Origin: Acidobacteria bacterium RIFCSPLOWO2_12_FULL_66_21
Lineage (GTDB): Bacteria > Acidobacteriota > Vicinamibacteria > Vicinamibacterales > 2-12-FULL-66-21
DNA: 64,000 bases
NCBI GenBank assembly: GCA_001767455.1
Contig: MELC01000024.1
Location: 1-64,000 of the forward strand
Direction: 5' to 3'
Below are positions 49,185 to 52,794 of this stretch, piece by piece. Made by a program: the position numbers and the translations under genes. Numbering within the stretch: position 1 is the first letter of the stretch; every line of letters starts with the position of its first letter. The notes below the pieces were generated by a model that worked only from the letters and a program-made list of their open reading frames with translations, was not told where the DNA came from and ran no database searches.

Positions 49185-49215
49185 CGAAAGGCCCGACTGA
49201 AGGTCGGGCCTTTCG
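49185..49215 (+). terminator. Strong hairpin terminator
   Basis: A perfect 13-bp stem cgaaaggcccgac / gtcgggcctttcg with a 5-nt loop, 4 nt after the CoA-transferase stop. The T-run is within the stem end only, but stability is high. Confidence 0.8.
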
Positions 49216-49401
49216 CCTCGGAGCTCGCAGCTCGCGGCCCGCCCGGGCGCCCTCCTTCCAAGGCCACTTACCGTCGAGGTCGACAGCAAGAAGCCCGCTG
49301 CGACGCCTGTTTTTTCGGCTGAAACATCTTGACCGACCGAAATGGTCGGATATACAGTCGGAAGAACTTTGAGACTTGTCTCATTTTCGGGAGGCCCTTT
49401 C

Positions 49402-50751
49402 ATGACGCGACCCTCGCCAGCACTTATCGGCTGCGCGCTCCTGGCAGCCCTGCTTTGCATCCCTTCGGCGTCCGGCGCCCAGGACACGCCCAAACCCGCC
49501 GGCAAACCCGCGCCGGCTGTGGCGCCCGTTCCGCCTGATTCCGAAAGCCAGGCGCCCGATCAGAAGAAAGACCTCGACGAACTGCGGCGACAGATTGAGG
49601 TGCTCGCCGCGGAGGTCGAGGCGCTGCGCAGCGGCGAGACTCGCGGGACTGTCTTGACGGCCGGCGAGCGCCGGATGCTCGGGCTGGGACCATCGGCGGC
49701 ATCGGTGTACGAGCACAAGCCGGGCGTTTCGTTCGCCGGGTACGGTGAGGTCCTGTACGACAACACCGCCCGGTCCAACGAGAGCGGCGGTGGCGGAGCC
49801 GTGGCGTCCAGAATCGACCTGCTCCGGGCGATTGTCTACACGGGCTATCGCTTCAACGACAGGTTCCTCTTCAACTCGGAGATCGAGTTCGAGCATGGCG
49901 GGGACGAGGTGAGCGTGGAGTTCGCGTATCTCGACTACCGCGTGAGCAGCGGCGTATCGCTGCGCGGGGGAATGCTGCTCGTGCCGCTGGGCCTCACGAA
50001 CGAATTCCACGAGCCGAACGTGTTCATCGGCACGCATCGGCCCGAGACCGAACGGCGCATCATCCCCTCGACATGGCACGAGAACGGTGTCGGCGTTGTC
50101 GGCAGCGCCGGGCGTGTCAGTTACCGGGCCTATCTCGTGAACGGCTTCGACGCCGGAGGCTTCACGGCGGGCGGACTGCGAGGAGGACGCCAGGGCGGCG
50201 CGGAAGCCCTCGCCAACGATTGGGGATTCGCCGGACGTCTGGACGTCACGCCGGTGCCCGGCGTGTTTGCGGGCGCGGGGCTGTATCGCGGCAACTCCGG
50301 CCAGGGAACGGTCGGAGCGGCCGATGTGGCGACGACGATCGTCGAGCTGCACGCGCAGGCCCAGGTGCGCGGCGTCGACGTGCGCGGCCTGTTCGCCCGC
50401 GCGTCGGTCGGCGATGCCGCCGCGCTCAACGATTCGCTCGGTCTCGCCGGGAGCGCGTCAGTCGGGAGGACCCTGGCCGGGGGATACGCGCAGGTGGGCT
50501 ATAACGTGCTCTCGCAGCGCACCACGCGAGTCGCCTTCACGCCGTACTACCGGTTCGAACAGCTCGACACGCAGAAGTCCGTCCCGGCCGGGTTCCTGAG
50601 GAACGGTGCGAACGATGTGCGGTTCCATACCTTCGGCGCCGAACTGAAGCCGATTGGCAACATCGTGGTGAAGGCCGACTACCAGTGGGTTTCCAACCGG
50701 GCGAAGACGGGACGCGATCAATTCAGCGTCGCCCTGGGCTACGCGTTCTGA
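49402..50751 (+). CDS. Outer-membrane beta-barrel porin, first gene of flavin cassette
   Basis: A 449-residue secreted protein: signal peptide (ending S-A-S-G-A-Q), Pro/Ala linker, a short coiled coil (L-D-E-L-R-R-Q-I-E-V-L-A-A-E-V-E-A-L-R) and a barrel of alternating strands ending Q-F-S-V-A-L-G-Y-A-F with the aromatic C-terminal residue of outer-membrane proteins. The coiled coil plus barrel plan resembles phosphate-selective porin O/P and other trimeric porins. gggagg is 7 nt before ATG 49402. Its stop overlaps the next ATG (TGATG), linking it to the FMN-binding protein. Confidence 0.8.
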   Translation: MTRPSPALIGCALLAALLCIPSASGAQDTPKPAGKPAPAVAPVPPDSESQAPDQKKDLDELRRQIEVLAAEVEALRSGETRGTVLTAGERRMLGLGPSAASVYEHKPGVSFAGYGEVLYDNTARSNESGGGGAVASRIDLLRAIVYTGYRFNDRFLFNSEIEFEHGGDEVSVEFAYLDYRVSSGVSLRGGMLLVPLGLTNEFHEPNVFIGTHRPETERRIIPSTWHENGVGVVGSAGRVSYRAYLVNGFDAGGFTAGGLRGGRQGGAEALANDWGFAGRLDVTPVPGVFAGAGLYRGNSGQGTVGAADVATTIVELHAQAQVRGVDVRGLFARASVGDAAALNDSLGLAGSASVGRTLAGGYAQVGYNVLSQRTTRVAFTPYYRFEQLDTQKSVPAGFLRNGANDVRFHTFGAELKPIGNIVVKADYQWVSNRAKTGRDQFSVALGYAF

Positions 50752-51317
50752 TGCGCATGATGGTGCGGCGGCGTGCCGCCGAGGTCGCGGCGGCGATGGT
50801 GGTGCTATGGGCGGGCGCGGCCGCCGGCACCACCGCCGACACGCTCACGCGCGAGGCGGCGCTCGCGCACGCGTACCCGGGCGCGACGTTCACGGCGGAA
50901 CGCGTGTTCCTGACGATTGAAGAGCAGCGGCGGGCCGCGGAGGGCGCCGGGCAGCCGATCGCCTCCGCGCTCGTCGCGCGATACGTCGCCACGAAGGACG
51001 GGAGCACGATCGGGCGCGCCTACGTGGACACGCACGTCGTGCGCACGAAAAAGGAATCGCTGCTGATTTCGCTGGACGCGGCAGGAGCGGTCCAGCGCGT
51101 CGATGCGATCGCCTTCCTCGAACCGCCGGAATTCGCCGCGCCCCGGGCGTTCCTCAATCAGTACACAGGCAAGCGCCTGACCGGCGATCTGCGTGTGAAT
51201 CGCGCGATCAGGCCCCTCGCCGGCGCGACGCTGACGGCCAACGCCACCACCGACGCCGTGCGCCGCGTGCTCGCCATAGACGCGGTGCTGCAGACGTCAA
51301 GAGCGGGTCGCAAGTGA
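50751..51317 (+). CDS. Exported FMN-binding domain protein
   Basis: A 188-residue secreted protein with a signal peptide and a C-terminal FMN-binding domain of the NqrC/RnfG type. The covalent FMN attachment motif appears as L-A-G-A-T160-L-T, the Thr being the site normally flavinylated by ApbE, whose gene is two genes downstream. No membrane anchor beyond the signal is seen. Start ATG 50751 overlaps the porin stop by one base; the stop overlaps the GTG of the next gene (GTGA). Confidence 0.82.
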   Translation: MRMMVRRRAAEVAAAMVVLWAGAAAGTTADTLTREAALAHAYPGATFTAERVFLTIEEQRRAAEGAGQPIASALVARYVATKDGSTIGRAYVDTHVVRTKKESLLISLDAAGAVQRVDAIAFLEPPEFAAPRAFLNQYTGKRLTGDLRVNRAIRPLAGATLTANATTDAVRRVLAIDAVLQTSRAGRK

Positions 51318-51769
51318 CACGCTGGAAGAAGTACTCGTTCTCCGCCCTCGCCATGACGGTCTCGCTGAGCGGCGGCGCGTACGGATGGATGAAATACCTG
51401 CTGACCACCGACGACCCCTTCGCCGTCGTCAATCATCCGCTCCAGCCGCTCATGCTGCACCTGCACGTCGCCTCGGCACCTGCCTTTCTCGTCCTGTTCG
51501 GCATTCTGCTGGACTCGCACGTCGCGGAGCGCATCGGCCGGGACCTTCCGAACCGCGGCTCCGGCCTGCTCTCATTCGGAACGATCCTGGTTATGAGCGT
51601 TTCCGGCTACGCACTGCAAATCGTCACCGGCGATCGGGCACGGTAGGTCTGGGTGGCGGCGCACCTCGGCAGCGGGCTGCTCTTCGCCGTCGCGTACTCA
51701 GTGCATCTATTCGTCAGCGTGTGGATGTGGCTGACGTCGCCGCCGCCGCAGCGCACGTCAATCACATGA
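51314..51769 (+). pseudogene. Small membrane b-type cytochrome interrupted by in-frame TAG
   Basis: From GTG 51314 the frame gives 110 residues with two or three membrane helices and histidines H51 and H69, then TAG at 51644-51646. The same frame then continues without another stop for 40 codons (W-V-A-A-H117-L-G-S-G-L-L-F-A-V-A-Y-S-V-H131) to TGA 51767-51769, which overlaps the ApbE start as ATGA. The continuation is clearly the missing last helix: H51/H69 and H117/H131 look like two heme b ligand pairs of a DUF4405-like cytochrome. Without readthrough the product loses two predicted ligands. Nonsense mutation, sequencing error, or suppression are all possible. Confidence 0.75.
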
Positions 51770-52794
51770 CCTGGGCGCTCGCCATTGCCCTTGTCCTCGT
51801 GCCGCTCGCGACCGGTGGGGCAGGGGGCAAATCCGCGCCCTTCTCGCGCGAAGCGTACGTGATGGGCACGCGCGTGACGTTGACGACGTGGGACAGCAGC
51901 CGCGTGCGCGGCCTCGCCCGGCTCGAGCAGTTGCTCCAGCCGATCGAAGCGACGGATCGGCAGTTGAGCACGTGGCGGTCCGACAGCGAAGTCAGCCGGT
52001 TGAACGCGGCGGGCGCTCCGTTTCGTCTGTCGCCGTCGCTCTGCGCGCTGTTGACCGGGCTGGAGCGATGGACGACCGCTTCCGACAGCGCGTTCGATCC
52101 CGCGATCGGTGCGTTGAGTCTGGCCTGGGGGATTCACACGGGCGGACGCCTGCCGTCAGCCTCCGTCGTTGCCGCCGCGCAGCAGGCGTCCGGGTGGCAG
52201 CGGCTCGGATTCGACGCGGCCAGGTGCACGATCGCGAAATCCGCGGACGTCGCACTCGACGTCGGCGGGTTCGGGAAAGGAGAGGCGCTCGATCGGGCAC
52301 GCGCCGCAGTGTCCCCCGCCGAGGCATGGCTCATCGACCTTGGCGGCCAGGTGGCGGTCAACCTCGCGCCGCCGGGGCGCGTGGGATGGCCTGTGGGCAT
52401 CGCGCATCCACAGCGGCGTCAGAAGGCTGCGCTCATCCTCGAGATGTCCTCCGGTTCGATCGCCACGAGCGCCGGATCCGAACGCGATCTGTACGCAGAC
52501 GGCAGGCGCATCAGCCACATCCTCGATCCCCGCACCGGCCGGCCCGCGACGTTTACGGGGTCCGTGACCGTCTGGCACGACGACGCCCTTGCCGCCGACG
52601 CCCTGTCCACCGCGCTGTTCGTGATGGGACCCGAGCGTGGCTTGCGCTGGGCCGAGGCGCACGCGGTGGCCGCCTGCTACCTGATTCCCACCGCAGATAG
52701 TCCGCCCGAGGTTCGCTCTTCGTCCGCCTTCACGACGAAATTTCCCCGCCTCCGCAAGCTCGCCGGCCGCCGGGGCACGGCCGGAAACCCGTAA
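51766..52794 (+). CDS. apbE: FAD:protein FMN transferase ApbE
   Basis: A 342-residue exported enzyme that transfers FMN from FAD to a Thr of FMN-binding domains, here almost certainly T160 of the neighbour. Motifs: Y-V-M-G-T-R-V-T near the N terminus, D-V-G-G-F-G-K-G, L-I-D-L-G-G-Q, I-A-T-S-A-G-S-E-R, H-I-L-D-P-R-T-G-R-P and D-A-L-S-T-A-L-F-V-M-G. ATG 51766 overlaps the readthrough stop of the cytochrome gene, which supports the full-length reading of that gene. Signal peptide T-W-A-L-A-I-A-L-V-L. Confidence 0.93.
   Translation: MTWALAIALVLVPLATGGAGGKSAPFSREAYVMGTRVTLTTWDSSRVRGLARLEQLLQPIEATDRQLSTWRSDSEVSRLNAAGAPFRLSPSLCALLTGLERWTTASDSAFDPAIGALSLAWGIHTGGRLPSASVVAAAQQASGWQRLGFDAARCTIAKSADVALDVGGFGKGEALDRARAAVSPAEAWLIDLGGQVAVNLAPPGRVGWPVGIAHPQRRQKAALILEMSSGSIATSAGSERDLYADGRRISHILDPRTGRPATFTGSVTVWHDDALAADALSTALFVMGPERGLRWAEAHAVAACYLIPTADSPPEVRSSSAFTTKFPRLRKLAGRRGTAGNP

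Follow-up and report, generated by a model that had tools for sequence, protein, structure and literature searches.

We examined a 64,000-nucleotide stretch of DNA from Acidobacteria bacterium RIFCSPLOWO2_12_FULL_66_21 (contig MELC01000024.1, positions 1 to 64,000; hereafter the window) and focus here on four genes at 49402–52794 that encode a porin, a flavin mononucleotide (FMN) protein of the FMN_bind type, a small membrane cytochrome and ApbE. This cassette probably encodes a flavin-based ferric reductase of the cell envelope that is regulated by iron, has its own porin and serves iron uptake. The assignment is supported by the gene set, its order and conservation, fold models and the association with iron genes in relatives, and from these we infer heme binding, flavinylation, the direction of electron flow, iron as the substrate and the cargo of the porin.

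Results

A conserved operon linked to iron genes

The four genes lie on the plus strand and are translationally coupled through overlaps at ATG start codons. An earlier note on this DNA had described them as a coupled set, and its coordinates, the overlaps and ApbE all stand. The identity of ApbE is certain: it scores 214.5 bits against PF02424 (cut-off 25.6) and its active-site motifs are conserved. Conservation was assessed in Acidobacteriota genomes. Relatives of the FMN protein occur in 34 of 149 genomes of the class, and the cytochrome profile was found in 104 of 396 sampled genomes and in 58 of 211 genera of the phylum. The cytochrome is present at 65 of 71 loci read in wide context, with the order porin-fmn-cyt-apbE at 29, apbE-porin-fmn-cyt at 15 and porin-fmn-cyt without a nearby apbE at nine; these are counts of loci and not of independent genomes, some loci lying on short contigs and one genome appearing twice. 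The order porin-fmn-cyt is preserved and apbE shifts between the two ends; at one locus (L040, 3258–4730, minus strand) cytochrome and ApbE are fused in a single open reading frame (ORF) of 491 residues. Since dozens of genera share both the genes and their order, chance is excluded and porin-fmn-cyt-apbE is a real, conserved operon. Lack of such conservation, which the earlier note had named as a ground for rejecting the set, is thereby refuted. In the window's own family the cassette is present in two of 12 genomes.

The earlier note had also suggested looking for a linked reductase in relatives. None was found: clustering of the neighbours at the 71 loci revealed no constant reductase partner, and the linked genes instead encode Fur, FeoB, FTR1, ferritin and TonB receptors. 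Owing to this linkage, ferric iron is most likely the substrate that the earlier note had left unnamed. In distant families Fur adjoins 10 of 40 loci (six of the ten were scanned against Pfam, the remainder assigned by BLAST clustering), FeoB is a neighbour at L112, L134 and L137, and FTR1 at L115, L116 and L128. L134 additionally has a neighbouring DtxR/FeoA-domain protein, and at L134 and L112 Fur, FeoB and the cassette form one run save for a minor flanking regulator gene. The linkage of an iron transporter or Fur to the cluster, which characterizes flavinylated iron-assimilation systems, was found in relatives of several families.

Alternatively, the cassette could feed a periplasmic reductase or repair enzyme encoded elsewhere, acting on methionine sulfoxide, copper or nitrogen oxides, with the FMN protein as a carrier only. 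FMN_bind domains usually are carriers, as in RnfG, NqrC and PplA (PMC8238504, PMC10979944), and the cassette itself brings no such enzyme. Across families, however, iron genes recur beside the cassette and no enzyme family does, and we consider this alternative quite improbable. PSD/DUF1592-DUF1552 and TonB-receptor genes were evaluated as partners in one family and rejected because they recur in single clades only or are abundant anyway. At L048 (12192–15964) and related loci of the same family, a gene for a PSD/DUF1592-type cytochrome-like protein and then a DUF1552-like gene lie directly 3' of apbE.

An iron-operator-like palindrome upstream of the porin gene

Upstream of the porin gene, relatives have the promoter element TTGACCGACC-N5-GGTCGGATATA, followed by the 7-1-7 palindrome TGAGACTnAGTCTCA. 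Of 24 relatives, 17 carry the palindrome with no more than two mismatches, against a mean of five to six in shuffled upstream sequences. Genome-wide, the eight relatives scanned hold between 1 and 9 such sites each. Other copies precede feoA-feoB (L166), a feoA-feoB fusion (L171) and ferritin-like genes (L173, L175), and also TonB receptors (L162, L163, L164), a PepSY_TM gene (L169) and an ABC transporter ATPase (L170); a few others (L167, L168, L172, L176) resemble chance sites, and the one at L172, near 3286, apparently lies inside a tRNA-like sequence and is probably fortuitous. As the cassette shares its operator with iron genes, it probably belongs to an iron regulon in relatives, and the operator would be bound by Fur itself. 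Two loci (L036, L037) carry TGAAAATGATTTTCA and TGAAATTCATTATCA upstream of the cassette, which we take to be close to the classical Fur box consensus. The promoter element is conserved ahead of the cassettes of relatives; its copy in the window is perfect and, with up to three mismatches allowed, the only one in the genome.

The element TTGACCGACC-N5-GGTCGGATATA (L193–L203) forms a second dyad between -35 and -10 and occurs 0–3 times per relative genome (control 0). In G102, upstream of feoAB, and in G071:C112, upstream of another gene, it also adjoins an iron-operator site, and it may be the site of a second regulator. At nine loci (L034, L046, L050, L056, L057, L059, L061, L062, L069) a 5' leader of roughly 150–400 nt with the conserved hairpin GCCCGC.GGTGcggcaaCACC.GCGGGC lies upstream of the porin gene; the window lacks this leader.

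The same electron chain could work as a respiratory (dissimilatory) or general redox outlet that passes electrons to Fe(III), humics or another small acceptor admitted by the porin, and would then serve energy or redox balance and not uptake. The absence of a linked cytosolic module for reduced nicotinamide adenine dinucleotide (NADH) makes a quinol-fed outlet plausible, and many large genomes have the cassette. Still, the linkage to Fur, FeoB and FTR1 and an operator that feoAB, ferritin and TonB-receptor genes have as well point to assimilation, and extracellular electron transfer may be served in the window's genome by a locus of its own, which encodes an MtrB/PioB barrel and a multiheme-type cytochrome. 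On balance an outlet seems unlikely. At this MtrB/PioB locus (L188; G000:C30, about 168600–174000), feoB-feoA has as neighbours the outer-membrane barrel (302 bits) and a cytochrome rich in CxxCH motifs; it is possibly an extracellular electron-transfer locus.

The FMN protein and the porin

The FMN protein of the window scores 19.2 bits against FMN_bind (PF04205), just under the cut-off of 22. In the alignment of its family, 21 of 29 members match FMN_bind at E<=0.01 (best 8.9e-7), and the family profile matches RnfG at 7.6e-6. The protein is free and secreted, the signal peptide being its only transmembrane (TM) helix. Thr160, which the earlier note had proposed as the ApbE target, is invariant in the family alignment examined (set A3) and is the predicted acceptor; its motif (AGAT-L-T) reads AGAT in the window and most members and VGAT or TGAT in a few. 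L060 (5674–6949), L050, L055, L058 and L063–L065 encode a paralogue of the FMN_bind protein in which AGSSFT or AGASFT replaces AGATLT. Where the surroundings of this paralogue were examined (L060, L063, L065, L058), a gene for a small DUF5671-type membrane protein lies beside it, and cytochrome and apbE are not in place.

The earlier note's outer-membrane barrel is borne out by the porin model (predicted local distance difference test (pLDDT) 78.6, low in the first 100 residues), which has a 16-strand barrel preceded by a coiled coil. It is closest to the phosphate and polyphosphate porins OprO/OprP (4rjw; Z 27.5, 310 aligned residues, root-mean-square deviation (rmsd) 3.2). The cassette porin shares the barrel fold with these proteins but differs in sequence (14% identity) and in its redox operon context, and none of 25 porin members matched a Pfam porin family at E<=0.01. 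At three distant loci (L116, L117, L139) a DUF6662 protein occupies the porin's place before fmn; at L116, FTR1 lies after the cytochrome and Fur is transcribed divergently.

The cytochrome gene and its in-frame stop

The earlier note had described a small multi-His membrane protein. The gene is real, but the ORF at 51314–51646 is only part of it, and the TAG that interrupts the 151-codon frame at codon 111 had been missed. Past the TAG the same frame runs for 40 more codons to a TGA at 51767–51769 and overlaps the apbE start by ATGA; many relatives are coupled likewise. This tail holds TM4 with the invariant His117, Phe124, Tyr128 and His131 and has a coding-type composition (GC by codon position 0.62, 0.51, 0.90). 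The corresponding site is open in all aligned relatives, none of which is split, and a search of the window's genome for a second cytochrome copy found none.

The short ORF matched no cytochrome profile, and the read-through frame reaches a sub-threshold 18.0 bits against DUF4405 (PF14358; cut-off 26.7). In an AlphaFold model of this frame, with the TAG read as Trp, there are four helices (3–29, 44–75, 81–103, 107–141; mean pLDDT 83) and four intramembrane His on TM2 and TM4, whereas DUF4405 proteins have six TM helices with four central His (PMC11334425). The best natural structural match is cytochrome b6 (Z 11.8, 129 aligned residues, rmsd 3.1), and further matches are hydrogenase-1 cytochrome b, superoxide oxidase and the formate dehydrogenase cytochrome. 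Foldseek with the model gave no significant match, and the cytochrome profile gave only weak rhodopsin-like matches against PDB sequences. The invariant His51/His69 on TM2 and His117/His131 on TM4 would fit two stacked bis-His hemes, one per membrane face. The TAG would remove one ligand of each predicted heme, so a truncated product should not work as a diheme cytochrome.

The window allele is either truncated, mis-sequenced, read through or restarted at a GTG (51653). One explanation, compatible with a ferric reductase function of the family, is that the cassette is decaying in this genome through a recent nonsense mutation and a shortened operator and that its product is nonfunctional. We hold this to be possible, if somewhat doubtful. 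The TAG at codon 111, the 14-bp palindrome and the lack of the cassette in 10 of 12 genomes of the family agree with decay. However, the 39 codons after the stop retain a GC content of 0.90 at the third position and all invariant residues, the promoter element is perfect, the frames of porin, FMN protein and apbE are intact, and a base-calling or assembly error would look identical. Alternatively, the TAG could be real but bypassed, by amber read-through or by a restart at the GTG that would yield a cytochrome split into a three-helix and a one-helix part. The GTG is in frame, 6 nt past the TAG, and the downstream frame is intact up to its overlap with apbE; yet TAG terminates six of 42 long window ORFs and is therefore an ordinary stop here, and with no relative being split a bypass is very hard to credit. 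A programmed stop common to relatives, which had been flagged in the cytochromes of G301, G315, G229 and G436, was rejected: on re-reading, L101–L103 had no stop or only the natural terminal one, and L100 (G436) had none.

Locus layout

The features of the locus are collected in Table 1. The repeat AAGGCCCGA-N7-TCGGGCCTT is terminator-like and would part two transcription units. The genes upstream of the cassette (CoA-transferase III, acetyl-CoA hydrolase) and downstream of it (CoA-binding protein, DUF1259) are unrelated to it, and a search of the window for known RNA elements at gathering scores found none.

Table 1. Features of the cassette and its upstream region in the window
Feature	Position	Strand	Remarks
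Inverted repeat AAGGCCCGA-N7-TCGGGCCTT	49188..49212	.	between upstream acyl-CoA hydrolase-like gene and cassette
Promoter element TTGACCGACC-gaaat-GGTCGGATATA	49329..49354	+	-35/-10-like, dyad in spacer
Palindrome TGAGACTTGTCTCA	49370..49383	.	14-bp variant of relatives' 15-bp iron-operator-like TGAGACTnAGTCTCA
Outer-membrane porin	49402..50751	+	signal peptide, coiled coil (about 51–76), 16-strand-type OprO/OprP-like barrel
Secreted FMN_bind protein	50751..51317	+	predicted ApbE acceptor Thr160 in AGATLT
Small four-helix cytochrome b-like gene, read through	51314..51769	+	invariant His41, 51, 69, 117, 131
In-frame TAG	51644..51646	+	codon 111 of cytochrome; possible GTG restart at 51653
ApbE, flavin adenine dinucleotide (FAD):protein FMN transferase	51766..52794	+	signal peptide, motifs GS.aTS..SER / H.lDPRTG

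Discussion

In the proposed pathway, electrons would come from the quinone pool and be carried across the inner membrane by the small four-helix diheme b-type cytochrome. ApbE would place FMN on Thr160 of the periplasmic FMN_bind protein, which would accept electrons from the cytochrome and whose flavin would reduce periplasmic Fe(III) or its small chelates. The OprP-like porin may admit the iron or chelate, and Fe(II) would enter the cytoplasm via FeoB or FTR1-type transporters encoded adjacent to the cassette or elsewhere. The earlier note had outlined an electron path from an inner-membrane cytochrome b to a flavinylated periplasmic protein, with entry through the porin; this path appears partly supported, as it fits the conservation, the fold models and the fusion of cytochrome and ApbE. 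As the cytochrome gene is interrupted by the TAG, the pathway may be broken in the window's genome, unless an error in the sequence accounts for the stop or translation bypasses it. It is also conceivable, though very improbable, that porin and flavinylated protein form an electron conduit across the outer membrane, a flavin counterpart of the porin-cytochrome complex MtrAB, with reduction of iron minerals or chelates taking place at the cell surface and not in the periplasm.

Several observations weigh against a ferric reductase for iron uptake. In the window, the cytochrome as annotated lacks TM4, the flanks of the cassette hold no iron gene and the palindrome TGAGACTTGTCTCA has 14 bp, one base short of 15. 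The window's genome has no copy of the 15-bp TGAGACTnAGTCTCA within one mismatch, even upstream of its two feoAB loci, and families of the same class show no constant iron neighbour of the cassette. The AGAT of the FMN protein departs from the canonical ApbE motif [S/T]GA[S/T], and the fold likeness of the cytochrome model is suggestive only, since helical bundles reach middling Z scores by chance. With the palindrome one base short, iron control would be weaker in the window's genome; judged by homology to the relatives, it is nevertheless likely.

Among known systems, the closest likeness is to clusters described by Meheust et al. 2021 (PMC8238504), whose survey in eLife reported that flavinylation clusters can contain iron transporters, that Fur represses PepSY-like clusters and that FMN-binding genes accompany P19-FTR1. 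With these flavinylated iron-assimilation clusters (PepSY-like/DUF2271, MsrQ-like/VIT1, P19-FTR1) the cassette shares ApbE, a secreted flavin carrier, a heme-type transmembrane carrier (or FTR1) and the linkage to iron transporters and Fur. It differs from them in its different and smaller cytochrome, in the AGAT motif of its FMN_bind protein and in the porin as a constant member; the main text of PMC8238504 mentions no porin. Huang et al. 2024 (PMC11334425) demonstrated heme b in a DUF4405 protein and in FezC, and their DUF4405 cytochrome-apbE clusters and FezC have in common with the cassette a small multi-His membrane cytochrome adjoining apbE. However, the DUF4405 proteins of that study come from Proteobacteria and Firmicutes and are often paired with flavodoxin, whereas the cassette combines a four-TM cytochrome that scores below the DUF4405 cut-off with an FMN_bind partner and a porin. 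RnfG and NqrC share the FMN_bind domain with an ApbE-acceptor-like Thr, but the cassette protein is free and secreted, has AGAT for SGAT, and no Rnf or Nqr genes were seen nearby. A precedent for the porin is given by PMC7315122, where the ordinary porin OmpC has a role in iron entry. No description of the porin-containing set was found in the open-access literature. The cassette is probably a variant of known flavinylated iron-assimilation systems in which the porin and the small cytochrome are new.

Soils are rich in Acidobacteriota, most of which have not been cultured. If our assignment is true, a phylum-wide, iron-linked flavin reductase operon would offer a concrete and testable account of how these bacteria use ferric iron and would add a minimal cytochrome family outside Pfam, as well as a porin, to the flavinylated iron systems.

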